From positions 1,922,001-1,986,000 of the forward strand of contig NZ_CP163528.1 in NCBI RefSeq assembly GCF_041081105.1: DNA of 64,000 bases. The letters are read 5' to 3'. Under the pieces are notes generated by a model, which did no database searches, was not told the origin of the DNA, and was given only the letters and a program-made list of their open reading frames with translations. This stretch comes from Promicromonospora sp. Populi. GTDB taxonomy: Bacteria; Actinomycetota; Actinomycetes; Actinomycetales; Cellulomonadaceae. Positions 7,321 through 26,539 of this stretch are shown here, piece by piece (the stretch's first letter is position 1; the number at the start of each line of letters is the position of its first letter). Position numbers and translations under genes: made by a program.

Positions 7321-7340
7321 CCTGGCCGTCCCCCAGGTAC

Positions 7341-7367: not shown

Positions 7368-7392
7368 GTCGTAGCTGCTCGACCCTGTGGTT

Positions 7393-7429
7393 GGGAAGCC
7401 CCGGAATCCTCAGGATTCCGGGGCTTCCC
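7393..7429 (+). terminator. Stranded glnA terminator hairpin
   Basis: GGGAAGCCCCGGAATCC, loop TCA, and the perfect complement (7413-7429) form a 17-pair stem. It follows the displaced glnA end and lies between it and the convergent aldo/keto reductase gene ending at 7445, so it can serve both. There is no long T-run, as is common in high-GC actinobacteria. Confidence 0.75.
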
Positions 7430-7444
7430 CGCGTTCGACGGCGG

Positions 7445-8314: not shown

Positions 8315-8481
8315 CAGGGATTCCTTCGTTCAGATGTCTCGGTCGCACGACGTCGGTCCGGGCGGACCGGCGCGGTGCGGTAGACCCACTGTCCCTCCGG
8401 ATAGCTCGGGCGGCCCATCAGGAGCTCTGAATGACGGCGGAAGGTCCACAGTTCGCCGGATTTGGCTCCTATACTTCCACC

Positions 8482-9483
8482 GTGGACCAGATCGACCGGC
8501 GAATCGTGCAGTGCCTGCTCCGTGACGGGCGGGCCTCGTTCCGGCGGATCGCGCAGGTGGCTCAGGTGTCCGAGCAGACCGTCGCCCGCCGCTACCGTGC
8601 CCTGGTCGCTGACGGGGCCGTGCGCGTGCGCACCCTGCCCAGCCACGAGCGGCTCGGCGAGCAGGTCTGGTTCGTCCGGGTCCAGTGCAGGCCCGATGCC
8701 ACCGGCGCCCTGGCCGACGCGCTGGCCGCGCGCGAGGACATCGCCTACGTCAGCGTCACCTCGGGCGGCTCCGAGATCGTCTGCCAGACCCGCACCGACC
8801 CTCGTCACCAGAGCGGATCAGCCCTGCACCGCCTGCCGCGCACGGCCGGGGTGCTGGGTTACAACGCGTACGCCGTCCTGCACATGCACCTCGGCGACAC
8901 CGCCAAGTGGTTCGCCTTTGACGATCCCCTCACCAGCGAGCAGGCTGCTCTGCTCCACTCTCCCGATCCACATCAGGAGCCGACGGCGCAGGCCGCCCAG
9001 GAACCCTCGGACACGGCTGCGCTGCCTGAGCGCGACCGCCGCCTGCTGGCCGAGCTCGCCATCGACGGACGCGCCGGAGTGGTCGAGCTGGCCCGCGCCA
9101 CCGGCTGGTCCAAGTCCCGCGTATCGGACCGCTTGACGGAGCTGCTCGCCAGCCAGGCCCTGCACGTCGCCGTGGACCTGGCCTACCCACGCTTCGGTTT
9201 CCATGACGCCGCGTACCTGTGGATCGCCGTCGCGCCCGGCCGCCTCGCCGCCACCGGTGACGCCCTCTCGGCCCACCCCGAGACGACCTTCACCGCCGCC
9301 GTCACAGGGTCCGCCAACCTCCTGGTCACCGTCACGTGCCGCACCCTGGAAGACCTGTACACGTACGTCACCACCAAGGTCGGCGCCCTCGACGCGGTCC
9401 AGCAGGTCGACGTCGTCCCCGTCCTGCGCCGCCTCAAGCAGGCCGGCACCCGCCTGCACAACGGCCGCCTCATTCCGACCTGA
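8482..9483 (+). CDS. Lrp/AsnC family regulator with two HTH-ligand units
   Basis: The 333-residue protein has two AsnC-type winged helices: DQIDRRIVQCLLRDGRASF near the start, and ERDRRLLAELAIDGRAGVVE at about residue 185. Each is followed by a RAM-like ligand domain, so it is a tandem duplication found in actinobacteria. GTG 8482 follows a -10-like TATACT (8470-8475) by 6 bases without a ribosome binding site, implying a leaderless mRNA. It is divergent from the aldo/keto reductase, and the 167-base gap holds GGTCCG-gg-CGGACC at 8354-8367, a possible operator. The effector is unknown. Confidence 0.85.
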   Translation: MDQIDRRIVQCLLRDGRASFRRIAQVAQVSEQTVARRYRALVADGAVRVRTLPSHERLGEQVWFVRVQCRPDATGALADALAAREDIAYVSVTSGGSEIVCQTRTDPRHQSGSALHRLPRTAGVLGYNAYAVLHMHLGDTAKWFAFDDPLTSEQAALLHSPDPHQEPTAQAAQEPSDTAALPERDRRLLAELAIDGRAGVVELARATGWSKSRVSDRLTELLASQALHVAVDLAYPRFGFHDAAYLWIAVAPGRLAATGDALSAHPETTFTAAVTGSANLLVTVTCRTLEDLYTYVTTKVGALDAVQQVDVVPVLRRLKQAGTRLHNGRLIPT

Positions 9484-9484
9484 C

Positions 9485-11451: not shown

Positions 11452-11632
11452 GTGCAGTCACGTCCGTGGTCAGGTGGGTCAGGGCACGGGGCGTGACAGC
11501 TGTCATCGGTGTTCCAATCTCTCGGGTTGCCCCACGATGGACCGCCGGGCGCGATCGGGGCAACGGATTTTCTGCCGACTGGAGTCAGTACGCCGGATGA
11601 ACAAGACGCCGTCGTCATGGAAGGCTTCGCGC

Positions 11633-12418
11633 ATGCACCGACGCACCGTGGACGAGCTGGGTGTGGCGCACACGTGGGGCGCAGGCACTGAGGTGATCTT
11701 CTTGAGTAACCCGCTGGCGAACCCCGTTGAGTGGTCGGGCCGCGTCCGCGACGACCTTCTCGCTCTGGGCTATCGGGTAACGACCTTCGAACACCGGCCG
11801 AGCGGCCTGGACTGGCGCAGCGCCGTCGCCTGCGTCGAGGCGTTCCTCGCTCGTAGGCGGGAGCCGGTCGCCCTCGTGGGGTGGTCTCAGGGAGCGGCGA
11901 TCGCACAGGAGGTAGCGCTCGCTGCCCCTGAGCGTGTGCGGGTGGCCGCGCTGCTTGCCACCTACGGGCGGCAGAACGAGATCGACAAGGTCTTGCAAGA
12001 ATCCTGGGACGTCCTGACGGACGCCGGATCGGACTCCCTGCGGCTTGCGCTGGGACTCTTGACCGCTTTCCCGCCAGATCGTCTTGCTGACGATTCTTTC
12101 GTGCGAAGCATGCGGGACGCGCAGTCATCGTGGGCCGGCCCGCTCGATCCACACGCGAGACGACGAGCAGCCACCTTCATCTCGACATACCAGGATCGGC
12201 TTCAGGACCTCGCGTGCGTCGCGATGCCCCGTCTGATCATGGGCTTTGAGCTCGACACCGACACCTTCGTCTCCCGGGCACGCGAGGTCGCGCAGGTGAT
12301 CCCGGGCGGAGAATATGTCGAGTTCCCCGGTCTCGGGCACGCGGCCCCGTTCAGCGACCCCGGTCTGGTCTGGCCGACCGTGGTCGGCTTCCTCAAGGAA
12401 CATCACCCTCCTGCGTGA
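11633..12418 (+). CDS. Alpha/beta-fold hydrolase
   Basis: The 261-residue protein has a nucleophile elbow GWSQGAA (Ser near residue 87), a late Asp in FELDTDTF and a final His in GLGHAAPF, the usual catalytic triad order. The oxyanion strand is near LSNPLANP. ATG 11633 is preceded by GGAAGG (11619-11624); an in-frame ATG at 11597 is less well placed. The protein is cytosolic, with no signal peptide. The substrate is not predictable. It lies downstream of and divergent from the ribosomal protection gene. Confidence 0.82.
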   Translation: MHRRTVDELGVAHTWGAGTEVIFLSNPLANPVEWSGRVRDDLLALGYRVTTFEHRPSGLDWRSAVACVEAFLARRREPVALVGWSQGAAIAQEVALAAPERVRVAALLATYGRQNEIDKVLQESWDVLTDAGSDSLRLALGLLTAFPPDRLADDSFVRSMRDAQSSWAGPLDPHARRRAATFISTYQDRLQDLACVAMPRLIMGFELDTDTFVSRAREVAQVIPGGEYVEFPGLGHAAPFSDPGLVWPTVVGFLKEHHPPA

Positions 12419-12455
12419 CGCCAGAGGTTCTGCCACTGTTCCTGACCAGCGCTGG

Positions 12456-13127
12456 TCAGTAGGCCACGGTGAAGTGCCGCGCCTCGCCCGGGTGCTCGAC
12501 CTCGTCCAGGGCCGCGACCGCCAGGTCCTCGGCCGAGATGCGCGACCGGCCGGCGGCGTCGAGCAGGAGCGTCGTCGTGCCGCGGCGGTAGGTGCCGGTC
12601 CGGATGCCCGGTTCGAGCACCGCCGGTGGGCTGAGGTAGGTCCACGCTGCGCCATGGCCCTCGCAGACTCGTAGCTGGACGAGGCTTGCGACGGCGCTCG
12701 ACCTCCACTGGGCCGGCACGAACCGCTCATCGTCGAGCACCAGAGTTGCGGGTGCGAGAGCGCTGATCAGCGGGCCGGCGCCGCCGATGAGCAACAGGGC
12801 GGTCTGGGTCTCGGCGGCGGCGTCGAGCAAGGCCCTGGTTGCCTCGGGGACGCTTGCCTCCTCGCCCGGTCGCGGGCGGACGGCGCTGATCGCGACGTCG
12901 GCGGTCCGGAGCAGGTCCGCGACCCGCGACTGGTCCCGGGCGTCGACGGCGACCGTCGAGATCGCGCCCGCTCCGGCCTCGCCGCTCGCGCCGCCGTACC
13001 CGGCGTTCCTGCCGCCGCTCCCGGCGTTCCCACGGGATGCCGCCACGACCTCATGGCCGCGCCCCGACGCCTCACTGACGAGGCGGGTTCCCACCATGCC
13101 GGTGGCCCCGAAGGTCACGATCCTCAT
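12456..13127 (-). CDS. NAD(P)-binding Rossmann-fold protein (SDR/epimerase-like)
   Basis: The 223-residue protein begins with a classic nucleotide-binding loop, TFGATGMVGTRLV. VDARDQSRVADLL and AISAVRPRP follow, typical of atypical short-chain dehydrogenases of the NmrA/YwnB type. A Gly-rich loop of about 15 residues (NAGSGGRNAGYGGASGEAG) interrupts the region after the first beta-alpha unit. The start overlaps the stop of the upstream EamA transporter by ATGA, so the two are translationally coupled. It may act as a reductase or a redox sensor; the substrate is unknown. Confidence 0.8.
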   Translation of the reverse strand: MRIVTFGATGMVGTRLVSEASGRGHEVVAASRGNAGSGGRNAGYGGASGEAGAGAISTVAVDARDQSRVADLLRTADVAISAVRPRPGEEASVPEATRALLDAAAETQTALLLIGGAGPLISALAPATLVLDDERFVPAQWRSSAVASLVQLRVCEGHGAAWTYLSPPAVLEPGIRTGTYRRGTTTLLLDAAGRSRISAEDLAVAALDEVEHPGEARHFTVAY

Positions 13128-14233
13128 CGTGCGACCTCCAGCGGTGCGAGGGCGGCGGGCAGTCCAGCCGGCAGGGGCGATTCGGTCAGGTCAGACGGAA
13201 GGGAACGCTCGGTCACTGCGGATGACGACGACGGCGCGGGCGACGCAACCGACGTCGGGACCGGAACCCCGCCCCGCCGGCCACGTTCCGGAAGCTGACC
13301 CGCGAGCACGGCGGCGAGCGCGAGCGCGAACCCGGCGGCCTGGACGGCCGACAGGCTCTCGCCGAGCACGGCGACGCCGATCACCGCCGCCACCAACGGC
13401 GACAGCGGGGACAGGAACGCGACAGACGTGACCGGCAGCCGTCCGATCCCCCGGAACCAGAGCACGTACGCGATGAGCCCGCCCACCAGGCCGAGCCAGA
13501 GGTAGCCGAGGGCCGCCCGCCCGTCGATGGCGGGTGGCGCGCCCTCCACCAGCAGGGTGACGGGAAGGAGGAAGAGCCCGCCAGCCATCAGCTGCCAGCC
13601 GCCGGCGGAGACCGGGCCGACCCCCTCCGGCCGCCCCCAGCGCTTGGTGAGGGTGACGCCGAGGGCCATCGAGACCGCGCCCGCAAGCCCGGCGACGACG
13701 CCCACCGGATCGAGCCGCGCGCCTGGCCCCAGGACGACGAGGCCTACGCCCGCCACGCCTGCGACGCCCCACGCGACCCGCCGTACCGCCAGGCGCTGAC
13801 CGAGCACCGGCACCGCGAGGAAGGTGACGACGAGCGGGCCGATCGCGCCGAGCGTGGCCGCCACGCCACCCGGCAGTCGTTCGGCGGAGATGAAGAGCAT
13901 CGGGAAGAAGAGCCCGATGTTGAGGATGCCGAGCACGGCGCTCTTCCACCACCACGAGCCCTTCGGCAGCGCCGCACCGATCCCCGTGCTGGTCCCCGTA
14001 CCGCGAGCCCTACCGGCCAGCCCGCTGATCACCATGCCGATCACCACTGCGACGAGCCCCGCGGGCAGCGCCCGCACCAGCCCGGCGAACAGCGGGTGCC
14101 CCGTGGGCAGGAGTTCGGTGGTGACGAAGTACGTGGTGCCCCAGACCATCGGGGCGAGCGCGGTGACGGCGGTCAGCGCCGCGGTGCTACCGAGGCCCCG
14201 GGTCCGGCCCGGCAGGAGCGTCGTGGTGTCCAT
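13124..14233 (-). CDS. EamA (DMT superfamily) transporter
   Basis: The 369-residue protein has about ten hydrophobic helices arranged as two EamA repeats (first with VWGTTYFVTTELLP, second with YLWLGLVGGLIAYVLWFRGI). The C-terminus adds a hydrophilic tail of about 60 residues rich in Pro, Ser and Arg. The family exports amino acids or other small metabolites. It is divergent from a LysR regulator across a 78-base gap containing a perfect palindrome, so it is probably that regulator's target. It is coupled to the downstream Rossmann-fold gene. Confidence 0.88.
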   Translation of the reverse strand: MDTTTLLPGRTRGLGSTAALTAVTALAPMVWGTTYFVTTELLPTGHPLFAGLVRALPAGLVAVVIGMVISGLAGRARGTGTSTGIGAALPKGSWWWKSAVLGILNIGLFFPMLFISAERLPGGVAATLGAIGPLVVTFLAVPVLGQRLAVRRVAWGVAGVAGVGLVVLGPGARLDPVGVVAGLAGAVSMALGVTLTKRWGRPEGVGPVSAGGWQLMAGGLFLLPVTLLVEGAPPAIDGRAALGYLWLGLVGGLIAYVLWFRGIGRLPVTSVAFLSPLSPLVAAVIGVAVLGESLSAVQAAGFALALAAVLAGQLPERGRRGGVPVPTSVASPAPSSSSAVTERSLPSDLTESPLPAGLPAALAPLEVAR

Positions 14234-14285
14234 GAGACCAGTCTTCGCGTTAGCCAGCTATGAGTCCAACACATCCTTTTCATTT

Positions 14286-14310
14286 GATCAATCGTGATAG
14301 ACGATTGATC
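14286..14310. promoter_or_regulatory. Perfect palindrome abutting the LysR start
   Basis: GATCAATCGT (14286-14295) and ACGATTGATC (14301-14310) are exact inverted repeats around a 5-base spacer. The T-n11-A motif usual for LysR boxes can be read inside it. It ends one base before the lysR start codon and lies 52 bases from the divergent EamA start. One bound dimer could repress its own translation or transcription start and control the transporter. Confidence 0.75.
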
Positions 14311-14311
14311 C

Positions 14312-15202
14312 ATGGAGCTCCAGCAGATGCGGTACGTCGTCGCCGTCGCCGAGACGGCGAACTTCACCAGGGCCGCCGAGCGCTGCCACGTGGTGCAGTC
14401 CGCCCTGAGCCACCAGATCAAGCGGCTGGAGCACGAGCTCGGAACCGCGCTCTTCGCCCGGACCAGCCGCCGGGTCCGCCTGACGCCCGCGGGCGAGGCT
14501 TTCCTGCCCGCCGCGCGGCAGGCGCTAGAGGCCGCGGAGCGCGCAGCCGCCGACGCAGCGGCCACCGTCGGGGAGGTGCGGGGGCGCCTCAGCGTCGGCG
14601 TCATCCCGACGGTCGCCGCCGTGGACGTGCTCGCGGCCCTTCGCGACCTGCGCCGTCGTCATCCGCACGTACGCGTGACCCTGCGTTCCGGCGCGAGCGA
14701 CGAGCTGACGGCCGAGGTCATCGACGGCAAGCTGGACGTGGCGTTCCTCGGTCTCCCGAGCGGCTCGCGGCCCACGGGCGTGCGCAGCCACGAGCTGGGC
14801 CGCGACCGCCTCGTCGCGGTGCTCGCGCCAGACCATCCCCTCGCGCGTGCGCGGAAGGTCAGCCTCGCGGACCTCACGACCGAGGCGTTCGTCGACTTCC
14901 CGTACGGGACCGCCGGCCGGGCCCAGACAGATCAGGCCTTCGCCCGGTCCGGGGTCAGCCGCGATGTTGCCTTCGAGGTCACGGACGCGGCGCTCATGGC
15001 CCAGGTGATCGGCCACGGGCTAGCGATCGGCTTCCTCCCGGCGGCCTACCTCCAGCGGGCCCCGGAGCTCGGCGGCCTCGCCACCGTCGCCGTGAGCGAC
15101 GCCCCGAGCCGCGTCGAGCATGTGGTGTGGGCCAGCCCCGGGCCCTCGCCCGCGACGCTTGCCTTCCTCGACGCGATCGGGCTTCCGCCGACGGCGGCGT
15201 GA
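14312..15202 (+). CDS. LysR family transcriptional regulator
   Basis: The 296-residue protein has an N-terminal winged helix (MELQQMRYVVAVAETANFTR, then SALSHQIKRLEHELGTALFA at about 35-54). A C-terminal type-2 periplasmic-binding-like effector domain starts near residue 90 (GRLSVGVIPTV). It is probably the regulator of the divergent EamA transporter and its coupled Rossmann gene. No ribosome binding site precedes ATG 14312, because that space is occupied by the palindromic operator; the mRNA may be leaderless. The inducer is unknown. Confidence 0.92.
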   Translation: MELQQMRYVVAVAETANFTRAAERCHVVQSALSHQIKRLEHELGTALFARTSRRVRLTPAGEAFLPAARQALEAAERAAADAAATVGEVRGRLSVGVIPTVAAVDVLAALRDLRRRHPHVRVTLRSGASDELTAEVIDGKLDVAFLGLPSGSRPTGVRSHELGRDRLVAVLAPDHPLARARKVSLADLTTEAFVDFPYGTAGRAQTDQAFARSGVSRDVAFEVTDAALMAQVIGHGLAIGFLPAAYLQRAPELGGLATVAVSDAPSRVEHVVWASPGPSPATLAFLDAIGLPPTAA

Positions 15203-15225: not shown

Positions 15226-16089
15226 TCAGCGGAGACTGTCGCCCGCGCGCCAGACCCAGCGGAGCGCGTCGGGCAGCAGCACGCCCGCGTGGTTCGGGTT
15301 GTGACCGCCGTCGCCCAGGACGAGCCGGAAGTCGTAGCCGGCCTCCGCCAGGGCGGCGGCGGTCCGCAGGTTCTCCGCGAGCCAGTTGTGCTCCGGTCGG
15401 TCCCAGCCGATGTCTCGATGGCCGGCCTGCAGAAAGATCCGCAGCGGCTTGCGAGGCTCGGCCGTCAGCGCGGAGGGGTAGGGATTGCCGCCGGGCATCT
15501 GCGCGAAGCTCGACAGGAAGCCCACGACGCGGCGGAACTGGTCGGGGCGGTGCCAGGCGGCGGTGAAAGCACAGTTCCCGCCGCTGCTGCCGCCCACGAT
15601 TCCCCAGCGGTCCGGGTCGTCGCTGACGGCGTACCGGCGTCGAACCTCCGGGACGACTTCGGTCAGCAGGAACGTGGCGTATCGGTCGTCGGCCGCGTCG
15701 TACTCGGTATTGCGGTTCTTGCGCCGCGCCGGGTCCTGCTGGTCCTCGAAGACTCCTGGGTCGACAAAAACACCGATGGTCACCAGGATCTCGCCAGCGT
15801 GGACCAGGTTGTCCAGCACGATCCCGCCCCGGACTTCGCCGTCCGGGTCGAGGTACCACCAGCCGTCCTGGAACACCAGGAGCCCCGCGGGATCGGCGGG
15901 GTCGTAGGCCGCTGGGACATGGATCCATACGGTGCGAGCCGTGCCTGGGAAGACGGCGCTGTCGTTCAGGCGCAGCTCGACGGTCTCGCCCCTGGGCACA
16001 CCTGGGCGCACCGACGAGTCCGGGCCGTGCTCATAGCGGACGTCGTCGAGGTCGAGCGGCAGGGCGCGGAACGGGACACGGGCGGTCAC
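15226..16089 (-). CDS. Esterase of the enterochelin-esterase/D family type
   Basis: The 287-residue protein starts with a beta-sandwich-like segment (TVWIHVPAAYDPADPAGLLV). An alpha/beta hydrolase core follows, with nucleophile motif GGSSGGNCA (Ser near 168), Asp in the QAGHRDIGWD region and His in GDGGHNPNHAG. This matches the putative esterase family PF00756 (Fes/IroE-like). There is no signal peptide, so it is cytosolic. In siderophore systems such enzymes hydrolyse ester siderophores, but no siderophore genes lie nearby, so the substrate remains open. Confidence 0.82.
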   Translation of the reverse strand: MTARVPFRALPLDLDDVRYEHGPDSSVRPGVPRGETVELRLNDSAVFPGTARTVWIHVPAAYDPADPAGLLVFQDGWWYLDPDGEVRGGIVLDNLVHAGEILVTIGVFVDPGVFEDQQDPARRKNRNTEYDAADDRYATFLLTEVVPEVRRRYAVSDDPDRWGIVGGSSGGNCAFTAAWHRPDQFRRVVGFLSSFAQMPGGNPYPSALTAEPRKPLRIFLQAGHRDIGWDRPEHNWLAENLRTAAALAEAGYDFRLVLGDGGHNPNHAGVLLPDALRWVWRAGDSLR

Positions 16090-16808: not shown

Positions 16809-17747
16809 CTACGGCACCACCTCGATCGCCACCGTCACCGTCTGGTTCCTGGCGCGGTTCGCGTCGCTCGTGTTGGGGTACGGCGGGTCGACGGCGCCCG
16901 CGCCGGCCACGTCCACCGCGCTCAGCGGGATCCCGCTGTCCGCCGAGATGACCTGCGCCGCCGCGAGCGCCCGGGCCAGGCTCACCTCGGCGTTGTCGAG
17001 GTAGCGGCTGCCCGGAACGGGTGCGGTGTTGCTCGTGTGGCCGATGACCGTCACCTCGACGTCGGTCAGGTCACCGAGCAGCCCGGCGAGGCCCGTAAGA
17101 GCATCCGCCCCGCTCCGGGACGTCTCGGCGCCACCGGCCTGGAACACCGGGTCGCGGAACGTGACGAGGACGGAGCGCGCGTCGAGCGTCGTGGTCCAGC
17201 GCTGGTCTCCCAGCGCGTCCCGCACCTCCCGCAGGGCTGTCTCGCGCGACGTAGTTCCTTCCGACGACGACGGCGGCGGCGGCGGCGGCGGTGTGGCCGT
17301 ACGGATCTGATTCAGGTCGTGCCTCAGCTGCGCGAGCTCCTGGGCCACCGCGGGGTCCGCCTGCTGTTCGGCCGAGCGGTTCGCGAAGCCCCACCCGGCC
17401 ACGGCCCCGCCCCCGGCGAGCAGGAGGGCGGCTGCGGCGGCGCCCAGCACGAGGCCCCCGCCGGTGCGCCGTCCGCCCCACATCGCGCGGATCCGGCGGC
17501 GCCCGTCGCGGGCCCCGGCGTGCTCCGGGTCGAGGTGCTCGACGCGGGCCCAGCACGCGTCGGCCCGGGCCAGGTCGCCGCGCTGGGCGTGCACACGGGC
17601 CAGCAGGTCGAGGACCGCGACGTCGTCGCTGTGCTGGCCGCCGATCGAGTCGAGCAGGCGCCGCGCGTCGTCGTACCGCCCGGCCCGGGCTTGCAGGGCG
17701 GCGTCGGCCAGTGCGGCCTGGACTGAGGCCTCGGCGACGCGGCTCAC
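16809..17747 (-). CDS. TPR-membrane-OmpA-like protein (last gene of Hsp70 operon)
   Basis: In 312 residues there are three parts. An N-terminal TPR-like helical domain (about 5-85; ADAALQARAGRYDDARRLLD) is followed by one membrane helix (about 97-122). After a poly-Pro linker comes a C-terminal OmpA/MotB-like domain (about 190-312; VTVIGHTSN, then NRARNQTVTVAI). The OmpA part would lie outside the cytosol and may bind cell wall. GTG 17747 overlaps the stop of the Hsp70-like gene (GTGA), so the two are coupled. This gives the chaperone operon a link to the envelope. Confidence 0.8.
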   Translation of the reverse strand: MSRVAEASVQAALADAALQARAGRYDDARRLLDSIGGQHSDDVAVLDLLARVHAQRGDLARADACWARVEHLDPEHAGARDGRRRIRAMWGGRRTGGGLVLGAAAAALLLAGGGAVAGWGFANRSAEQQADPAVAQELAQLRHDLNQIRTATPPPPPPPSSSEGTTSRETALREVRDALGDQRWTTTLDARSVLVTFRDPVFQAGGAETSRSGADALTGLAGLLGDLTDVEVTVIGHTSNTAPVPGSRYLDNAEVSLARALAAAQVISADSGIPLSAVDVAGAGAVDPPYPNTSDANRARNQTVTVAIEVVP

Positions 17748-20269
17748 TGCGCACCCCCGTTGCCCAGCAGGCCGTCCCCGAGGATCGACGGCGCACTGGT
17801 ACCCCCGCCGCTCCGGTCCACGAACCGGTCGAGCCGGGCGTTGATACCGGTGAGCCGGTTCAGGTCGCCGACGGCGACCGCCGAGCGGCCGTCACCGAGG
17901 AGGCGCTGCACCTCCCGGCGCGGGTCGCCGTCCAGCTCGTTCTCCAGGGCCGCGAACCGGATCAGGGGAAGCTGCCCGTTCTCCTCGAACACGCGGATCG
18001 CGATGGACCGAACCTCGTTGGTCCGCCGTTCGATCACCGTCCGGTTGCCCTCCGCGATGGCGTCCTCCAGCTCGGCCTCGGCCCGCCGCAGCTCGTCCGT
18101 GTAGCGGCCGTTGCCGGCCTCCGCGACGACCTCGTTGGCGATCCCCTGTGCCTCCCTGCCCTCCTCGACGATCTTGGGCAGCTCCAGGAGCTCGTCCACC
18201 TCGTCGAGGGCGGAGTCGGCGTCGAGCAGCCGCGCCTGGCAGGTCGCTAGCGCGTCCGGGTCCGCCTCGGACTGGCGCAGCAGCCGGTCGATCTCCTCCA
18301 TGATGCTGTCCGTGTCCAGCCGGTCCAGCCGGGCCAGCGCCTCGGTGGCCCGGATCTGCTCACCCTGGCTGCGCAGGTCGTGGTACCTGGTGTCGAGCGC
18401 CGTGCGGGCGGCCCGCAGGTCGGCGAGCTCGGGCAGCACGGGGCGGCTGAGGTCGACGTCGATGGCGAACTCGGCGTCGAGGAACGGGACGTACGCCTCG
18501 GCCTCGATCCGGAAGCTGCTGTCGACGCGTACGACCACCTCTACCTCCGTGCCCAGGGGCAGGTCGCGCTCGATGTCGTCCGAGCGGACGACGAGCTGGC
18601 CCACCACCGTGTTGCGGTCGGCCCGCGCGTGCTCACCCGTCAGGATCGGGATGCGCATCAGGCCGTTGCCGGACCTCCGGTCGACCGCCTGCGTGGTCCG
18701 CAGGCCGTTGACGCGGCCCGTGCTCGGCAGCTCGGTGTTGCGCCGGACCAGCGGCACCAGCGTGTTGCCGACGAGGCCGACGCTGATCGAGTGGCTCATG
18801 GTCGGGGCGCCGCCCATGCCGCCGCTCTTGCGCTGGTAGGTGAAGCCCGGCTGGTAGGTCGCCTGCTCCGTGCCCGCCGGGTCGTGCACGGTCACCGTGA
18901 ACGAGTGCGTGGCGAACTCCGTGGCACGCAGCCGTACGGAGAACGACCCGTCCTGGCGCAGCGCCACGGCGCCCGTGGTCCACGGGGGTTTGGTCGTCGT
19001 GTTGCGGATCTCGACGGTCCCGCCGGTCCAGTCGGCGATGTCGTCGGCCTGGACCCGCCCGCCGAGCAACGGGTCGGCATCCAGCCCGGCTGCCGAGTAC
19101 TCGAGGTTCAGCAGCGCACGGCCCGGGACGACCGGGGCCGCTGCCCGCACCTCCTGAGGGATGCGCTGCGTCGCGGCGTAGATCGCCGCGCCGCGCGCCA
19201 CCACCGTCATCGGGTCCAGGCTGTGGTCGAGCGGGATGCCGAGGCCCTCGACCGGATCGGCCAGCATCTCGCGCACCAGGGCGAGCTGGGACGAGCCGCC
19301 GACCAGCAGCAGCCGCTCGAACGCCTCCGGGGGGATCGCGCTCTCGGACAGCGACTGGCGGCACAGCCGGATCGAGCTCGCCACCAGGGGCCGCGCGATG
19401 TCCGCCAGGTTGTCCCGCGTCAGCTCGCAGTAGAACTCGACGTCGCGGCCGGCCTCGACCCTGATCTCCGCCTCGATCTCCACGCTGTCCTGCTGCGCCA
19501 GCTCGATCTTGGCCGCCTCGGCCAGGCCCTTGAGCTGCGCGAGCACCCCCCGGTACCGGGGGTTGTCCGCAGTGACGTCGGTCAGGCCGTGGTCCTGCTG
19601 CAGCCGGGGCAGCAGGTAGTCCTCGACGATGGCCCAGTCGATCCGCTTGCCACCCAGCGAGTTGTCGCCCGCGTGGTTGACCACCATGAACTCGCCGTCC
19701 TCGATCTTGACGACGGCGGCGTCGAACGTGCCGCCGCCGAAGTCGTAGACCAGCCAGAACCCCTTGTCGGGTGCCTTGGCATCCGCCGTGTACGCCCAGA
19801 CGGCGGCGGTGGGCTCCTGCAGCAGGGGCGCGGCCTTCAGACCGGCGAGCTCGGCGGCGCGACTGGTCGCGGCCGTCTGGTCCGCGGTGAACGCGGCCGG
19901 GACGGTGATCACCGCCGTCTCGACCGGCTCGCCCGTGCGTCGCTGCACGTCGCCGCGCAACGACTTGAGCACCTCCGCCGACATCTCCTCCGGCGACATG
20001 GTGCGGCCCGACGCCTCGAACAGCTTGTCCTGGTCGCGGCGGCCCATGCGGAGCTTGAACTCGGCGCACGCGTTGTCGGGGTCGGCCACCACCCGGGCGC
20101 CGGCCTTCTGCCCGACGAGCACGCTGCCCGTTCGGCTCACATACACCGCCGACGGCGTGAACTCCACGTTCTGAGCGTTACGGACCACCTCGGCGCTCGC
20201 GCCCTTCGCCTCGGCGACGGCGCTGTTGGTGGTACCCAGGTCGATCCCGATGTCGATCGTGTCACGCAT
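17744..20269 (-). CDS. Hsp70 (DnaK)-like protein with extra beta domain
   Basis: The 841-residue protein is longer than DnaK (about 620). Residues 1-375 form an actin-like ATPase with GIDLGTTNS, VYDFGGGTFDAAV and RLLLVGGSSQ. Residues 383-480 are an inserted beta-rich segment (TGGTVEIRNTTT; HSFTVTVHDPAG). Residues 490-610 resemble the substrate-binding beta domain. Residues 611-841 are a long helical, acidic coiled-coil-like tail. The ATG overlaps the end of the GrpE-like gene by 8 bases. The dedicated kinase, J-like and GrpE-like neighbours suggest a specialised chaperone cycle distinct from housekeeping DnaK. Clients are unknown. Confidence 0.88.
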   Translation of the reverse strand: MRDTIDIGIDLGTTNSAVAEAKGASAEVVRNAQNVEFTPSAVYVSRTGSVLVGQKAGARVVADPDNACAEFKLRMGRRDQDKLFEASGRTMSPEEMSAEVLKSLRGDVQRRTGEPVETAVITVPAAFTADQTAATSRAAELAGLKAAPLLQEPTAAVWAYTADAKAPDKGFWLVYDFGGGTFDAAVVKIEDGEFMVVNHAGDNSLGGKRIDWAIVEDYLLPRLQQDHGLTDVTADNPRYRGVLAQLKGLAEAAKIELAQQDSVEIEAEIRVEAGRDVEFYCELTRDNLADIARPLVASSIRLCRQSLSESAIPPEAFERLLLVGGSSQLALVREMLADPVEGLGIPLDHSLDPMTVVARGAAIYAATQRIPQEVRAAAPVVPGRALLNLEYSAAGLDADPLLGGRVQADDIADWTGGTVEIRNTTTKPPWTTGAVALRQDGSFSVRLRATEFATHSFTVTVHDPAGTEQATYQPGFTYQRKSGGMGGAPTMSHSISVGLVGNTLVPLVRRNTELPSTGRVNGLRTTQAVDRRSGNGLMRIPILTGEHARADRNTVVGQLVVRSDDIERDLPLGTEVEVVVRVDSSFRIEAEAYVPFLDAEFAIDVDLSRPVLPELADLRAARTALDTRYHDLRSQGEQIRATEALARLDRLDTDSIMEEIDRLLRQSEADPDALATCQARLLDADSALDEVDELLELPKIVEEGREAQGIANEVVAEAGNGRYTDELRRAEAELEDAIAEGNRTVIERRTNEVRSIAIRVFEENGQLPLIRFAALENELDGDPRREVQRLLGDGRSAVAVGDLNRLTGINARLDRFVDRSGGGTSAPSILGDGLLGNGGAQ

Positions 20270-20876
20270 CGTCCTGCCCCCTCTTCTCGGCGTCTGCCCG
20301 CTCAGGCACAGCCACGATCACTTCACCCTCCTGGATGATGCGTCCCGCACGCCGGACCGACGGGCGGACCGTCTCGACCACGGTCTCCTCGGTGACGTCC
20401 GGGTCGTCCTGGTAGGCCAGCACCCGCAGGTCCATACCCACGTCGAACCGCAGCCCGTCGTGCCCCTCCACCTCGATCCCTGCACGCACGAGGCGGTCGT
20501 CGGCGGCGGCCAGGTAGCGGTTGGCCCAGCGCACGGCGCGCGGCGGGTCCTGCTCGGCCCCCGGACCGTCCACCTTGTTGCGGGCCCGCCAGAGCTCGGT
20601 CACCAGGCCGGCCACGACGTCGTCGGACAGGCCTTCGGGGCGTGCATCGAGCAGCGAGTCCGGCGCCTGCGGCGCCGTCGGCCCGGATGCAGCGGACGAC
20701 GCCGGAGCAGCTACCGGGTTGGAGACCGGGACAGGGGCCGGGTCAGAGGCCGGACCAGGGGCCGGAACTGAGGCCACCGCAGGCGGCGCGATCCGGAACT
20801 CGGCCGGGAACCGGTGCTGCCGGGACCAGGCCGACAGGCTGCCGGCGCCGGGCCGGCGTCGTGGTGCGGCGTTCAC
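20262..20876 (-). CDS. GrpE-like nucleotide exchange factor
   Basis: This 204-residue protein has an N-terminal half that is a Pro/Ala/Ser-rich disordered linker (APGPASDPAPVPVSNPVAA). The C-terminal 100 residues resemble the GrpE four-helix and beta-wing region: LVTELWRARNKVDG, then VETVRPSVRRAGRIIQEGEV and IVAVPE. GTG 20876 is preceded by AAGGAG at a spacing of 7. It would exchange ADP on the adjacent Hsp70-like protein. Similarity to canonical GrpE is weak, so partner specificity is inferred from the operon. Confidence 0.7.
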   Translation of the reverse strand: MNAAPRRRPGAGSLSAWSRQHRFPAEFRIAPPAVASVPAPGPASDPAPVPVSNPVAAPASSAASGPTAPQAPDSLLDARPEGLSDDVVAGLVTELWRARNKVDGPGAEQDPPRAVRWANRYLAAADDRLVRAGIEVEGHDGLRFDVGMDLRVLAYQDDPDVTEETVVETVRPSVRRAGRIIQEGEVIVAVPERADAEKRGQDDA

Positions 20877-20937
20877 CCATCCACTCCTTGTTTCGGTGGT
20901 GCATGTGTTGTGCGTACCGGTCTCGATGATGCCCTCA

Positions 20938-22179
20938 TCAGCGGCCGAGGTCCTGGAAGAACTCGACGACTTGCGCGACGGCGCCTATCGCCACGAATCC
21001 GCCGAAGATGGCCACCAAGGTGGACCAGATCGGTCCGATGTCGACCACGTTGTACATGAGCCACCAGGACAGCGCACCACCGATCAGGAAGGAGATCAGG
21101 AGCGGCGCGCAGCCCAGGTTGGCCTCCGCCGGAACCCCGGCTCGGCGCCCCGCCCGGTAGTTCTCGATGTCCGTGATGTTGTTGTCCAGCAGCGTCGTGA
21201 CCGACGGCGACGACGCCAGCGCACGAGCCTCGCGGAGCAGGTCCAGGACGGGGCCCGAAGACAGCGCGCCCGGCGCTTTCTCCACGTACACGTTCACGAA
21301 CCCGAGCACACAGTTGTTGACGGCGCGCGCCACCTCGTCCCGGCAGGCGCCGACCACGTCGTCGTCGTTCCCCAGGACAGCCGCGCAGGTCGCCAGCGCC
21401 GGCGTCGTCTCCTCCAGCAGCTCCGTCGCCGCGGAGAGCCCTGCGGACGGCACGGTCTGCCGTGCCGTCTCGCAGGCGTTCCGCACCCGGTCCGTGAACG
21501 GCTCGACGGCGCCGCGAGAGACGTCCCGCACCAGCCTCGGCTCGAAACCCGCCCCGCGCAGCACCTTCATCTGGGGCTCCGCAAGCTCCTGGCCGGAGCC
21601 GGCGGCCCGCACCACAAGCCCGACGGACACCCCGATGACGTGCTCCGGCAGCCGGTCACGCAGTGCGCGGAGCACCGCGACGGACAGGCGTGGGTCGTCG
21701 ATCTCCGCCGCGCGCTGGCGGACCCGCTCCCACGTCTCCTCGGCGACAAATGCCTCCGCCAGGAGGCGCAGGCCCACCCGCCAGTCGTCCCAGGTTTCCT
21801 CCTGCGCCACCCGCCCGTCGGGGGTGGTCGCCTCCAGCGCCCGGGAGTGCACAAAGACCGCGCGCTTGTGCCGGCTGTTCTGGTCCGGCCGGATCCAGAA
21901 CAGCTCGTGCACGAGCCGGGCCAGGGGATCGCGCAGCACCTCGAACGCGGCGCGCAAGGCGTCCGGGTCGTCCGACGGCGGCAGCGGCACCTCGCCGTCG
22001 GGCACCGGCGTCACGTAGTACGGGTTCTGGGTCTCCTCCCGGTGCCGGCGCACCTGCCGGTTCGACACGTCGGTGGGCAGCCCGGTGACCCGGAACGCGT
22101 TGTTCCGGTACAGGCCGTGCCCTTCGAGCGGGCGCAGCACCCGGTCGATGTCGCGCGCTACGTCGGAGGTGATGCTCAA
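20938..22179 (-). CDS. J-domain-like membrane protein
   Basis: The 413-residue protein has a degenerate J-like or DnaJ-associated N-terminal region: GLYRNNAFRVTGLPTDVS, then ALRAAFEVLRDPLARLVHEL. A helical middle follows, and two membrane helices sit near the C-terminus (APLLISFLIGGALSWWLM; TLVAIFGGFVAIGAVAQVV). I chose TTG 22179 because it overlaps the kinase stop (TTGA) and follows GGGAAGGGG. A longer in-frame start at 22221 is less likely. The canonical HPD tripeptide is not evident, so co-chaperone activity is an inference from context. Confidence 0.65.
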   Translation of the reverse strand: MSITSDVARDIDRVLRPLEGHGLYRNNAFRVTGLPTDVSNRQVRRHREETQNPYYVTPVPDGEVPLPPSDDPDALRAAFEVLRDPLARLVHELFWIRPDQNSRHKRAVFVHSRALEATTPDGRVAQEETWDDWRVGLRLLAEAFVAEETWERVRQRAAEIDDPRLSVAVLRALRDRLPEHVIGVSVGLVVRAAGSGQELAEPQMKVLRGAGFEPRLVRDVSRGAVEPFTDRVRNACETARQTVPSAGLSAATELLEETTPALATCAAVLGNDDDVVGACRDEVARAVNNCVLGFVNVYVEKAPGALSSGPVLDLLREARALASSPSVTTLLDNNITDIENYRAGRRAGVPAEANLGCAPLLISFLIGGALSWWLMYNVVDIGPIWSTLVAIFGGFVAIGAVAQVVEFFQDLGR

Positions 22180-23054
22180 CGGTCCGCCCCTTCCCCTGCT
22201 GCGTCCCGGCCGGCCTGCCACGTCGTCAGGGCCTTGCCCAGCTCGGCCGCGTCGGCGGGCCGGCGGGCCAGGTCGGGCTCGAGCGCACCGAGCACGATCT
22301 GCGCCAGGTCCAGGTCCGCGCGGCGGTTGAGGTCGTGCGGGGAGATCGGGGGCGGCCGGTGCTGGGCGCCGAACACCGTGGCCGGCACGTCCTCGTAGGG
22401 CAGCAGGTTGGTGAGCAGCAGGTACGCGACGGTCCCGACGGCGTACACGTCCCCGGCCGGGGAGGCGCCCTGGCCGTACCGCAACGCCTCCGGCGCCATG
22501 AACATGAGGGTCCCCTCGGAGCTGGTCAGCCCGGACGTGGCATCGACCCGCCGGGCCAGTCCGAAGTCGCCCACCCGCACCCGCAGGCGGTGCTGGTCGT
22601 ACCCGACCAGGACGTTCCAGGGTGTGATGTCGCGGTGGACTATCGGGGGGTCCGACCGGTGGGCCACGGCGAGCCCGGCGCAGAGCTGCACGAGGATCTC
22701 TACCGCGTCGTCGACCGGGACGGAGCCGTCCGGCCGCGAGCGCCGGTAGTCGTCGAGGTTGCCGGCGGCCACGTACTCCATGGTGAAGAAGCCGCGCTCT
22801 CCGGCCGGCGTCGGGACGGTCCCGGCGTCGAAGACCCGCACGATGTTGGGGTGGCCCAGCTTGGAGAGCAGGGTGGCCTCGCCGAGCATCCGGCGGGTCT
22901 CGGCCAGCGTGCCGACGCGCTTGAGGACCTTCATGGCCTGGCGTCCCAGGAAGCGGTGGCGCACCCGGTAGACCTCGGAGTAGGCGCCCTGGCCGAGGTA
23001 GCGCTCGATCTCGTACGTGTCGCCGATCCGGCTGCCCTCGCTGAGCAGGCGCAC
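22176..23054 (-). CDS. Cytosolic Ser/Thr protein kinase (first gene of Hsp70 operon)
   Basis: This is a complete Hanks-type kinase of 292 residues with a Gly-rich loop (YLGQGAYSEVYRV), catalytic Lys42 (AMKVLK), IVHRDITPWNVLV with Asp142 and Asn147, DFG at 163-165, and MAPEAL. There is no membrane helix or PASTA domain, unlike PknB, so it is soluble or tethered by partners. GTG 23054 is preceded by AGGAGGGA. It heads the five-gene operon and probably phosphorylates one or more of the J-like, Hsp70-like or OmpA-like products. Confidence 0.92.
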   Translation of the reverse strand: MRLLSEGSRIGDTYEIERYLGQGAYSEVYRVRHRFLGRQAMKVLKRVGTLAETRRMLGEATLLSKLGHPNIVRVFDAGTVPTPAGERGFFTMEYVAAGNLDDYRRSRPDGSVPVDDAVEILVQLCAGLAVAHRSDPPIVHRDITPWNVLVGYDQHRLRVRVGDFGLARRVDATSGLTSSEGTLMFMAPEALRYGQGASPAGDVYAVGTVAYLLLTNLLPYEDVPATVFGAQHRPPPISPHDLNRRADLDLAQIVLGALEPDLARRPADAAELGKALTTWQAGRDAAGEGADR

Positions 23055-23179: not shown

Positions 23180-26100
23180 TCATTCCGCGCCGTAGAACAA
23201 CCGCTCCATCACCGCCCGGGCGCGCCGGGCGAGGCGCAGGTAAAGCTCCTCCAGCTCCGGGCCGGTGCCGACGTCCCCGAGCAGGCTGGCGACGCCGGTC
23301 AGCGCGTGGCTGTCGTGCGGCAGCATGTCCACGCCGGCGCCCGTGGTGCGCCCCGACCACAGCACGATCGCTGAGCGCAGCCGCGACGCGAGCCGCCACG
23401 CCTCCAGCAGCACCTCGGCGTCGTCGTCGGTGAGCAGGTCGGCGTCCCGGGCGGCCTTCAGCGCGGACACCGTGCCGGTGGTGCGCAGGCCCGGCACCTC
23501 GAACGCGTGCTGGAGCTGCAGCAGCTGGACGGTCCACTCGACGTCGGACACCCCGCCGCGCCCGAGCTTCAGGTGCCGGGCTGGGTCCGCGCCGCGCGGC
23601 AGCCGCTCCGACTCGACGCGAGCCTTGATGCGGCGCACCTCGCGCAGCACCGCTGCGTCCGGCCCGCTCTCCGGGTAGCGCAGCGGGTCGATGAGCGCCG
23701 TGAACCGCGCGCCCAGGGACAGGCCGCCCTCCGCGCCGGGCCCCAGGTCGAGCGATTCGGCCACCGCGCCCTCGTCCGGGCCGCCCTCCGCGACCACGCT
23801 CAGCGTGCCCGACAGCGCCCGGGCGCGCAGCAGCGCCTGCGCCTCCCAGGGTGAGGACCAGCGCCCGTAGTACTTCACGTACGACTCGAAGGACCGCACC
23901 AGGGGCCCGTTGCGGCCTTCGGGCCGCAGGTCGGCGTCCACGGGCAGGGCCGGCTCGGGCCCGACGGCGGACAGGATGCGCCGCAGGTTCTTCGCCACCG
24001 TCAGGGCGTAGTCGTTGGCCGCCTTGTCCGGCGCGGCGCCCACCGCCTCGTACACGAACATGATGTCGGCGTCCGAGCCGTACCCCATCTCCTGCCCGCC
24101 GAGGCGGCCCATCGCGACGATGAGCAGGCGCGCGGGCTCGTCTCCGCGCGCGATCCCCCGCGCGGTGCGCGCCTCGTGCTCCGCGATGCGCAGCCCGCCG
24201 GCCAGGACGACGTCGGCCGCGTCGGAGATCGCCTTCGCTGCGGACACGGGCCCCAGCGCGCCCAGGACCTCCGCGACCCCGGTGCGGGCCAGCTCCCGGC
24301 GACGCAGCGCGCGCAGTGCCACGGTGGCGGCGTCCACCTCTTGGGCCCGCCCGAGCAGCGCGTCCGCCTCCGCCGCGAGCCGCCGCGCCCCGCGGGGCGC
24401 CAGCGACTCGGACTGCGCGAGCCAGCGCACCGACTCCGGGGACCGCCCGATCGCGTCGGCGAGGTAGCGCGAGGAGGACAGCACCTGGGCGAGCCGGGAG
24501 GCCGCCTCGGCGGAGTCGCGCAGCAGCCGGAGGTACCAGTGGGTGGAGCCCAGCGTGTCGGACAGCTTGCGGAACGCGAGCAGCCCCTCGTCCGGGTCCG
24601 CGCCCTCGGCGAACCAGCCGAGCAGCACCGGCAGGAGCTGGCGCTGGATGGCCGCGCGCCGCGAGACGCCGTCGGTCAGGGCATGCACGTGGCGCATGGC
24701 GCCGGCCGGGTCGCGATAGCCGGTCGCGGCGAACCGCGCCATCGCTGCCTTCGGCGCGAGGGACGCCTCGCCCGTGGACAGCAGCGCGGTGGCCGGCAGG
24801 AGCGGCCGGTAGTAGACGGCCTCGTGCAGGTCGCGCACCTCGCGCCGCACCAGCCGCCAGGTCTTGACGAGGTCGTCCGCGCCGCCCTGGCCCAGCCCGC
24901 GGGCCAGCCGCCGCAGCTCGGCCTCCGCGGTCGGCATGAGGTGGGTCCGGCGCAGCCGGAAGAGCTGGATCCGGTGCTCCAGCGCCCGCAGGAACCGGTA
25001 GCACTCCCCCATCCGGCGCGCGTGCTCGCGCCCGACATAGCCCCCGCGGGACAACGCGGCCAGGGCGTCGAGCGTGGTCCGGGACCGGATGTCCTCGTCC
25101 GCGCGACCGTGCACCAGCTGCAAGAGCTGCACGGTGAACTCGACGTCGCGCAGGCCGCCCTTGCCGAGCTTGATCTGCCGGTCGGCCTCGGCCACCGGAA
25201 CGTTGTCCTCGATGCGCTTGCGCATCGCGCGCGCGTCCTCGACGAAGTTCGGCCGCTCCACGGCCTGCCACACCAGCGGCCCGACGGCGGCGCCGTACGC
25301 CTCGCCCAGCGCCAGGTCGCCCGCGACAGGCCGGGCCTTGAGCAGCGCCTGGAACTCCCAGGTCACGGCCCACCGCTCGTAGTACGCGAGGTGGCTGGCC
25401 AGCGTCCGCACGAGCGGCCCCTGCTTGCCCTCCGGCCGGAGCGACGCGTCGACCTGCCACAGTGCCGGCTCCGCCGAAGCGCCGGAGCAGACCTGCGCGA
25501 GCCGGCCCGCGAGCCGGGCCGCGACCCGCAGGGCGTCGTCCTCGTCGCACGCCGGCGCGCCGTCGGGCAGCACACCCGGCTCGGCGACGTAGATGACGTC
25601 CACGTCCGAGATGTAGTTGAGCTCCCGGCCGCCGGTCTTGCCCATGCCCACCACCGCCAGGCGTACGCCGACGGCGTGGTCCTCCTCCTCGGAGCGCGCG
25701 ATCGCCAGCGCGCCCTCCAGCGCGGCGGCCGCCAGGTCGGCGAGCGCCGCCGCGACGGCGGGCAGCACGGCCGTGGGGTCGGGCGCCGTCACGTCGGTGG
25801 CGGCGATCCGCAGCAGCCGCGCCCGGTAGGCACGGCGCAGTTGGTCCGTGTACGACGGCGGGGCGTCCTCCGGCCTCCTCGTCGCCTGCCCGGGCCGGGC
25901 CGCGGGCACGTGGGTCCCCGCGACGGGATCGTCCGCCTCCGGGTCGGCGTCGATCGCCCGCAGCAGCTCGGCGCGGACGGCCCGGGCCGGCACGCCCGTG
26001 CCGGGGGTGGGGTCACCGATCAGGTCGAGCAGGGCCGGGTGCCGCACCAGCTCGTCGCCGAGCGCGGACGACGAGCCCAGCACCCGCAGCAGACGGTCCC

Positions 26101-26539
26101 CCACGGAGGGGCAAGGCGCGTCGGCGTCGGGGCCGCGCTCGCTGGGACCGCGCTCACCGGAACGGCGCTCGCCGGAACCCTGTTCGCCGACTTCCGGCGC
26201 TCTGGGACCAGGCGGGCCCAGGCCCTCGCCGTCGGCGATCGCGAGGACCGGGCGGAGCCGGTCCGGTGCGGCCGTTGCGAGGCGCACGAGCTGCAGCAGG
26301 GCGAGGTCGGGGTCGGCCACGGTGGCGAGCGAGCGCAGCAGTGCCGCGGGTGCGGGGTCGAGGACCACCGCGCCCCGGTCCGGACCGGCCGCGCGGTCCG
26401 CTGCCGGGCCGCCCTTCGGCCGGCTGTCCAGGACCGACACCAGGTCGGGATCCCACCAGAGCGAGGCCGACCGAGTGAGGTCGGCGAACCCAGCCCGGAT
26501 CAGGTGAGTCGTCAGGGTCTCGGGTCGGCGGCTCTGCAC
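23180..26539 (-). CDS. glnE: Glutamine synthetase adenylyltransferase/deadenylyltransferase
   Basis: The 1119-residue protein is slightly longer than usual because of a low-complexity GERGPSERGP-type stretch near residues 125-145. There are two nucleotidyltransferase domains: GKTGGRELNYISDVD at about 298-312 (adenylyl-removing half) and GRLGGQEMGYGSDAD at about 807-821 (adenylylating half). They are separated by helical domains. The enzyme controls glutamine synthetase I by modifying a tyrosine (about Tyr402 in glnA here). It lies beside glnA2 in the standard actinobacterial order. GTG 26539 has AGGGG just upstream. Confidence 0.95.
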   Translation of the reverse strand: MQSRRPETLTTHLIRAGFADLTRSASLWWDPDLVSVLDSRPKGGPAADRAAGPDRGAVVLDPAPAALLRSLATVADPDLALLQLVRLATAAPDRLRPVLAIADGEGLGPPGPRAPEVGEQGSGERRSGERGPSERGPDADAPCPSVGDRLLRVLGSSSALGDELVRHPALLDLIGDPTPGTGVPARAVRAELLRAIDADPEADDPVAGTHVPAARPGQATRRPEDAPPSYTDQLRRAYRARLLRIAATDVTAPDPTAVLPAVAAALADLAAAALEGALAIARSEEEDHAVGVRLAVVGMGKTGGRELNYISDVDVIYVAEPGVLPDGAPACDEDDALRVAARLAGRLAQVCSGASAEPALWQVDASLRPEGKQGPLVRTLASHLAYYERWAVTWEFQALLKARPVAGDLALGEAYGAAVGPLVWQAVERPNFVEDARAMRKRIEDNVPVAEADRQIKLGKGGLRDVEFTVQLLQLVHGRADEDIRSRTTLDALAALSRGGYVGREHARRMGECYRFLRALEHRIQLFRLRRTHLMPTAEAELRRLARGLGQGGADDLVKTWRLVRREVRDLHEAVYYRPLLPATALLSTGEASLAPKAAMARFAATGYRDPAGAMRHVHALTDGVSRRAAIQRQLLPVLLGWFAEGADPDEGLLAFRKLSDTLGSTHWYLRLLRDSAEAASRLAQVLSSSRYLADAIGRSPESVRWLAQSESLAPRGARRLAAEADALLGRAQEVDAATVALRALRRRELARTGVAEVLGALGPVSAAKAISDAADVVLAGGLRIAEHEARTARGIARGDEPARLLIVAMGRLGGQEMGYGSDADIMFVYEAVGAAPDKAANDYALTVAKNLRRILSAVGPEPALPVDADLRPEGRNGPLVRSFESYVKYYGRWSSPWEAQALLRARALSGTLSVVAEGGPDEGAVAESLDLGPGAEGGLSLGARFTALIDPLRYPESGPDAAVLREVRRIKARVESERLPRGADPARHLKLGRGGVSDVEWTVQLLQLQHAFEVPGLRTTGTVSALKAARDADLLTDDDAEVLLEAWRLASRLRSAIVLWSGRTTGAGVDMLPHDSHALTGVASLLGDVGTGPELEELYLRLARRARAVMERLFYGAE

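Follow-up and report, generated by a model that had tools for sequence, protein, structure and literature searches.

Several described systems combine parts that recur in the locus reported here. The mitochondrial import motor is built from mtHsp70, Mge1, Pam18, Pam16 and Tim44, with Pam16 docking and positioning the Hsp70, and the threonine-phosphorylation pathway of type VI secretion joins a kinase, an FHA protein, ClpV and the OmpA-type TssL. In the DnaK subgroup of Hsp70s, the two domains are joined by a short hydrophobic linker with the motif LLLDV. Here we analyse five genes of the soil actinobacterium Promicromonospora sp. Populi, whose genome is a single contig of 5.22 Mb; they lie in a stretch of 64,000 nucleotides (NZ_CP163528.1, positions 1,922,001–1,986,000, hereafter the window) and encode a serine/threonine (Ser/Thr) kinase, a J-like protein, a GrpE-like protein, a divergent Hsp70 and a protein with TPR, transmembrane (TM) and OmpA-like segments. 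A scan of 84,980 species with an alignment of the Hsp70 C-terminal part returned 52 loci (numbered with the prefix L), which is a lower bound, since the scan rested on two peptide patterns. The module is real, conserved and accessory, and contains an unusual Hsp70; it is also uncharacterised, and no published description of the five genes together was found in the literature searched. We consider it probable that the five genes form one unit, an accessory Hsp70 machine at the inner face of the envelope that is tied to Ser/Thr-kinase signalling.

The GAP1-N2 conflict systems (Kaur et al. 2020, eLife, PMC7159879) are built on a GTPase and GAP1, and their HSP70/GrpE theme is the closest published counterpart, its core being absent from the module. 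Shared with the module are HSP70 and GrpE, a partner fused to DnaJ or TPR, a location near the membrane and domains that bind peptidoglycan; a kinase occurs in another theme. Some of these systems have a second HSP70 without a peptide-binding domain, as one of our loci may have: in L043, a second Hsp70-type protein of 403 aa, roughly the ATPase domain alone, is encoded at 7631–8839 between the GrpE-like and the full Hsp70 genes. GAP1-N2 was found in neither the Promicromonospora genome, the window nor the 52 loci, with the positive control detected, and it was present in 3 of 296 sampled genomes. Inspection of four GAP1-N2 matches from three genomes yielded no GrpE-like or J-like profile match, one weak Hsp70-like match and two kinase matches.

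A reading of the window made from sequence alone had described a soluble Ser/Thr kinase beside a divergent Hsp70, and both assignments stand. The kinase has a Pkinase match and no membrane segment (Table 1), and Pfam HSP70 (PF00012) covers Hsp70 residues 7–367 at 1.2e-72, both matches exceeding the Pfam cut-off and the Hsp70 scoring 252 bits and thus below the DnaK equivalog cut-off of 822.55. Seven checked positions of the ATPase domain are identical in 49 of 49 Hsp70s. Aligned with DnaK (2v7y), the 49-sequence profile places positions 8–361 on DnaK 5–347 and, as a second stretch, 487–631 on DnaK 367–502 (i-E 3.3e-5), corresponding to the substrate-binding beta domain (SBD-beta). Between the two domains lie 125 profile positions compared with 19 residues in DnaK, that is, about 105 extra residues; the inserted stretch is 115–130 residues long in every one of the 49 members, and the LLLDV motif is found in none of them. 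Matches to Big_9 (0.0012) and Big_6 (0.0017), both below the Pfam cut-off, suggest that the insert may be a beta-sandwich of immunoglobulin (Ig) type. The tail after the SBD has 219–241 residues. With such an insert in place of the linker, coupling between the ATPase and substrate-binding domains would have to differ from that in DnaK. One member of the set, the Hsp70 of L063 (8412–11754), is distributed among several frames, which either decay of the gene or a sequencing error would explain.

By themselves, the window's GrpE-like and J-like proteins matched no Pfam family, and the NCBIfam GrpE match of the former lies below threshold (E 0.002). Compared by hhalign with 32 housekeeping GrpE sequences (31 different, that of the same genome included), the GrpE-like family profile reached 95.7% (E 9e-9) in an alignment covering window residues 93–188 and including the C-terminal beta domain. 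The N-terminal profile of the J-like family reached 91.6% (E 8e-7) with 30 housekeeping J-domains (28 different), and controls in which the J-like and GrpE pairs were swapped gave 3.5% and 0.9%. Pfam GrpE was matched in 11 of 38 GrpE-like family members, the window copy not among them. In searches of the PDB, the J-like profile ranked DnaJ chains first (best E 6.6e-4), and the GrpE-like profile placed a GrpE chain second, at an E-value of only 0.12. Through such family-profile comparison, the GrpE-like and J-like labels, which had been proposed from the window alone, both hold.

The HPD motif is absent from the J-like region in 48 of 49 members, and in the remaining one it falls in a stretch where close kin differ. 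"J-like" is therefore the apt name, and not "J-domain protein": the sequence relationship to J-domains is present and the HPD motif is not. An AlphaFold2 model of the window protein (pLDDT 92.4, pTM 0.80) has short helices at residues 36–46, 54–64, 86–97 and 99–107, in an order that fits helices I–IV of a J-domain; an extended helical array follows, and the chain ends in a helix pair at 372–393 and 397–426. A VIA comparison of this model gave matches mainly at residues 226–366, in the helical array. The two helices anticipated for this protein were recovered by hydropathy, at its C-terminus, and a TM segment is predicted in 44 of the 49 members of the J-like family. Each of the 35 relatives of the J-like protein that were found is annotated "hypothetical protein" or carries no name, which makes the module hard to spot in annotation. 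The window's genome has separate housekeeping dnaK, grpE and dnaJ genes away from the module. With the DnaK-DnaJ-GrpE machine the module shares an ATPase domain with the checked catalytic residues, SBD-beta, a GrpE-type C-terminal part and a J-like domain; it differs in the linker insert, the missing HPD, the membrane hairpin, the kinase and wall-binding partner and the accessory distribution.

The fifth protein has the TPR, single helix and OmpA-like domain originally described, with matches over cut-off to OmpA (PF00691; 3.3e-10, 40.6 bits, cut-off 27.2) and TPR_19 (1.8e-07) and one TM segment by hydropathy (residues 95–122) ahead of the OmpA domain, an arrangement that would place TPRs and OmpA domain on opposite sides of the membrane. 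By sequence, the protein matches MotB, PomB and TssL chains, and the top NCBIfam match of its OmpA region is TssL, far below cut-off. A TM segment is predicted in 39 of 42 fifth proteins elsewhere; the three that lack it have 114–184 residues and may be shortened by gene calling or broken sequence. Among 25 aligned long forms (the window's included), all except those of L039 and L056 follow the OmpA region. Ten fifth proteins were scanned by Pfam for the outer domain: LysM exceeded the cut-off in L039, L043 and L056, and OmpA did so in L048 and stayed below it in L028 and L045. Two unrelated peptidoglycan-binding domains thus occupy one position, an argument for wall binding as the purpose of the outer domain.

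The kinase carries a glycine loop (GQGAYSEV), the catalytic motif HRDITPWN and DFG; it has no hydrophobic segment and appears soluble by hydropathy. The Pkinase matches listed for the genome comprise 17 stretches, this kinase among them.

To assess conservation, we searched 59 near relatives with the J-like protein and obtained matches in seven at E 0.001; six of these, the window's own genome included, belong to the same genus, and one match is weak. Four relatives have the kinase, J-like, GrpE-like, Hsp70 and OmpA-like genes in this order, one of them with an additional J-like gene in front and one with a shortened kinase, and a fifth relative has the same order up to the contig end. The 52 loci come from Actinomycetota, Verrucomicrobiota, Acidobacteriota, Chloroflexota, Pseudomonadota and other phyla, and include an identical Hsp70 pair (L045/L046), a near-identical one (L028/L033), the split Hsp70 of L063 and several from Promicromonospora. 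By the rules of our script, 24 of the 42 loci that have sufficient flanking sequence on either side hold the complete set in unchanged order; the rules overlook L019 and L043, whose GrpE-like genes exist, and we retained the stricter count. By the same rules a GrpE-like gene lies directly upstream in 41 of 49 loci, a TPR-TM gene is present in 40 of 48, and a J-like gene occurs somewhere in 43 of 45 loci, in 38 of them upstream. The component hidden Markov models behind these counts were iterated inside the loci themselves, with the GAP1-N2 loci as the sole outside check. Most partners are missing from the most distant loci (L064, L066, L068 and L069). Distance matrices of all ten gene pairs correlate (rho 0.36–0.79, Mantel p <= 0.002 each), as shared ancestry alone would also produce. 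Because the gene order recurs across many genomes, the module is not a chance run of open reading frames (ORFs). Co-conservation, a point on which the sequence-only reading could have failed, is thus borne out, and the actinobacterial frame it had been given proved too narrow, with loci well beyond that phylum.

An Hsp70 tree of 51 rows is ordered mostly by phylum, with Pseudomonadota, Chloroflexota and Myxococcota scattered; this scatter may come partly from mis-binned metagenome contigs. L045 and L046, binned to different phyla, agree in their gene coordinates and have identical Hsp70s, and in L045 a phage-type integrase gene (4082–5179) lies just upstream of the module. The nearly identical L028 and L033 are recorded as Kibdelosporangium aridum and Rhodococcus rhodnii, pointing to a recent transfer or a mislabelled assembly. 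In L064 and L066, both from Myxococcota, two related Hsp70s stand with a J-like gene and several more genes, in an arrangement that differs from the module and may be a sister to it; three of these further genes, scanned in L066, gave no Pfam match over cut-off. In L031 (Promicromonospora panici), at 4594–13861, the kinase lies between two J-like genes and a further kinase-like gene follows downstream.

Within the window, the five ORFs are all on the minus strand and run from 23054 to 16809 in the 5'-to-3' order kinase, J-like, GrpE-like, Hsp70, TPR-TM-OmpA (Table 1). Three of the four junctions overlap, as had been noted from the sequence. With TTG 22179 as the start of the J-like gene, it shares 4 nt (TTGA) with the kinase gene, and with the longest ORF 46 nt; the TTG is favoured because the N-termini of homologues are shorter. 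A gap of 61 nt parts the J-like from the GrpE-like gene, the GrpE-like and Hsp70 genes share 8 nt (ATGCGTGA), and the Hsp70 and OmpA-like genes share 4 nt (GTGA).

Table 1. Module genes, their domains and the flanking genes, in window coordinates.
Feature	Position	Strand	Evidence
Ser/Thr protein kinase, 292 aa, GTG start	22176..23054	-	Pfam Pkinase 3.7e-37; no TM by hydropathy
J-like helical membrane protein, up to 427 aa, likely start TTG 22179	20938..22221	-	AlphaFold2; junction sequence
J-like domain, residues about 41-112, without HPD	21886..22101	-	hhalign, PDB profile matches
J-like protein, C-terminal two-helix membrane hairpin, residues 367-423	20953..21123	-	hydropathy, AlphaFold2 model
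GrpE-like protein, 204 aa, residues 93-188 aligning with GrpE	20262..20876	-	hhalign
Divergent Hsp70, 841 aa: ATPase domain, inserted stretch, SBD-beta, C-terminal tail of about 230 residues	17744..20269	-	Pfam HSP70, DnaK profile
Hsp70 inserted stretch, residues about 370-486, perhaps Ig-like	18812..19162	-	alignment; sub-cut-off Big_9/Big_6
Hsp70 substrate-binding beta domain, residues about 487-606	18452..18811	-	profile vs DnaK 2v7y
TPR-TM-OmpA protein, 312 aa; TPR 21-76, TM 95-122, OmpA-like 189-308	16809..17747	-	Pfam, hydropathy
Flank outside module: glnE	23180..26539	-	same site in relatives, empty sites
Flank outside module: putative esterase	15226..16089	-	Pfam Esterase 5.8e-16

The module follows two genes that we take to be glnA and glnE, recognised from their sequences, with 125 nt between glnE and the kinase ORF, and it sits just downstream of glnE in relatives too. 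Stretches at the glnE site were compared in eight genomes of the genus without the module there: in five, glnE is directly followed by esterase or LysR/EamA genes, and the other three are uninformative, two (L122 and L126) containing no marker genes and one (L129) ending with its contig. The esterase gene adjoins glnE in two genomes without the module at that site, and one of the five empty-site genomes bears the module elsewhere. From these empty sites, we conclude that the module is a cleanly gained or lost accessory unit. The Hsp70 type is rare: of 396 genomes sampled from the phylum, the window's own was the one that had it, and of 221 in the family seven had it, counts for which the best four and seven first-look candidates per genome, respectively, were scored; it occurs in 6 of 13 genomes of the genus, where scoring all candidates gave the same six genomes.

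Among recurrent neighbours, one cluster is present in 12 loci, its members being either Clp-type ATPases or small proteins some 150–250 residues long. Seven of the small proteins match the N-domains of four clustered Clp ATPases at 99.7%, and the one in L037, scanned alone, had no Pfam match. In L040, a Clp ATPase directly follows the fifth gene, and Clp ATPases similar in sequence occur in L046 (on the opposite strand), L047, L048 (cut by the locus end) and L063. Genes for proteins that combine FHA and winged-helix domains lie upstream of the kinase gene in L043 and also, at a distance of two ORFs, in L044, and L032 has an FHA protein beside a second kinase; FHA matches fall below cut-off in L018 and L020, and L022 and L024 gave none. 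These neighbours are consistent with protein unfolding and phospho-signalling. In L067, a gene at 12241–15195, after the TPR-TM gene, encodes a nucleotide-cyclase domain fused to a Clp-type ATPase, and is followed by a gene for a very large J-like protein with HEAT repeats. A kinase, FHA, a Clp ATPase and an OmpA-like domain thus all occur in module neighbourhoods, as they do in the type VI pathway, mostly not together in one locus. Unlike that pathway, the module has Hsp70 as its core; sheath or tube genes were not recognised among the recurrent neighbour clusters inspected, in a survey that included no search aimed at them.

Based on these data, we propose how the machine might work. In the safest part of the proposal, which is based on homology, the Hsp70 would go through the ATP cycle typical of its family, and the GrpE-like protein would serve it as nucleotide-exchange factor. 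A C-terminal hairpin would hold the J-like protein in the membrane, with the J-like domain and the long helical array facing the cytoplasm; as that domain has no HPD, docking and positioning of the Hsp70 is more likely than stimulation of its ATPase. Through its TPRs, the TPR-TM-OmpA protein would couple this cytoplasmic machine to the peptidoglycan outside. The architecture of the two proteins suggests membrane docking by the former and wall anchoring by the latter, in its OmpA or LysM form. The position of the kinase gene and the FHA neighbours point to control by the kinase, which, read by FHA-domain regulators in some lineages, may switch the module's expression or its assembly. Several lineages may add a Clp-type unfoldase or lone Clp N-domain as a cooperating part, and such partners indicate unfolding or disaggregation of envelope proteins. 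The gene set with its order and recurrence, the domain relationships, the linker insert, the predicted membrane segments, the exchange of OmpA for LysM and the accessory distribution are observed; we infer the physical complex, the docking role, the kinase control, the clients and the topology of this scheme. In a fuller form, which we offer tentatively and judge a little short of probable, the loci represent an undescribed Hsp70 machine, old enough to occur in several phyla, in which an extra domain replaces the linker, clamped between membrane and peptidoglycan, switched by kinase and FHA proteins and partnered by Clp: a wall-sensing, phospho-gated envelope unfoldase, possibly serving defence or competition.

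Several findings weigh against this interpretation of the module. Pfam DnaJ was matched in none of the 49 J-like proteins, and five of the 49 have no predicted TM segment. OmpA-like domains bind peptidoglycan through the Asp of GHTD and an Arg of the next helix; the window protein retains the Arg, in LARA, and reads GHTS where several relatives have GHTD or GHTE. In the Pfam scan, the shorter fifth proteins of L042, L060, L061 and L062 gave TPR matches only and neither OmpA nor LysM, so the constant part is TPR plus TM, and wall binding is not a feature of every module. Only a minority of loci have FHA or Clp neighbours, and no named actinobacterial locus belongs to the Clp cluster. For kinase control in particular, 13 actinobacterial kinases and that of the window have HRDxT as opposed to HRDxK in 15 others, three (L027, L028 and L033) have HLD, and in L026 (Promicromonospora umidemergens, about 6254–6904) an in-frame internal deletion strips the catalytic loop from the kinase while the other four genes stay open. 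The kinase is also the component most often missing, with no upstream copy in 13 of 45 testable loci (Verrucomicrobiota 6, Myxococcota 3, Actinomycetota 2, Pseudomonadota 2). The deleted catalytic loop, the HLD kinases and these 13 loci would all be expected if the kinase merely rides along and the functional unit is the four-gene chaperone set, a view that overlaps with the one we prefer, so that the probabilities of the two are not additive. We regard it as somewhat unlikely, given that a kinase lies upstream in 32 of 45 loci across phyla and that kinase and Hsp70 distances track each other (rho 0.66). Of the phosphorylation-controlled envelope chaperone machine suggested by the sequence-only reading, the chaperone set and its membrane and wall domains are therefore retained and phosphorylation control is the weaker part; the outline of that reading was correct, its taxonomic range was too small and its statement on phosphorylation too strong.

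The rarity of the module, its patchy, accessory occurrence with empty sites and its spread across phyla would also suit a conflict or anti-phage system similar to the NTP-dependent conflict systems of Kaur et al. 2020: triggered by the kinase, the Hsp70 machine would sense or remodel a protein of a phage or competitor at the membrane. Three J-like proteins contain Sel1 or HEAT repeats, resembling the superstructure-forming repeats named in PMC7159879. Against PADLOC-DB, the kinase matches 33 models, PD-T4-6 and mad6 (2.9e-52) among them, and the 25 listed are kinase-type or kinase-bearing; these models, however, are generic. The OmpA-like protein weakly matches ZorB (3e-7), and the Hsp70, GrpE-like and J-like proteins matched no model at E 1. 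Among 145 flanking genes, compared without a control set, only kinase-type models recur (in two or three genes), with PDC-S24 and GajB found once each. Moreover, a Pfam scan of the five proteins revealed no toxin or nuclease domain, the window J-like protein was unmatched on plasmids and phages with no viral contig confirmed, and GAP1-N2 is absent, as described above; a role in defence is accordingly unlikely. Still less likely is a motor for export or envelope assembly, in which a membrane-held Hsp70 pulls particular substrates that cross or enter the membrane, or keeps them competent. In outline the parts are those of the mitochondrial import motor, namely a membrane-held Hsp70, a GrpE-type factor, a J-like membrane protein without HPD and a membrane tether, but the five genes include no equivalent of the HPD-bearing Pam18, add a kinase and a wall-binding type of domain, and have no translocon visible alongside; none of the recurrent neighbour clusters inspected was recognisable as a translocon or a cargo family, in a survey that included no dedicated search for either. 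As for an ordinary additional dnaK-grpE-dnaJ operon that kinase and OmpA genes adjoin by chance, the Hsp70 and GrpE homology is real and Hsp70 paralogues are common. The universal linker insert, the near-universal absence of HPD, and a gene order kept across phyla with the housekeeping set elsewhere make it highly improbable, and co-conservation largely refutes it. We favour the accessory Hsp70 machine at the inner face of the envelope.

The current understanding of Hsp70 allostery centres on a short conserved linker. A multi-phylum Hsp70 family with more than 100 linker residues, in which the checked ATPase residues are kept, is a natural experiment on communication between the domains. The protein described here would be a bacterial Hsp70 tied simultaneously to the membrane, the wall and a Ser/Thr kinase, and its deletable accessory locus, with natural module-free relatives, offers a handle on the role of envelope-tethered chaperones.

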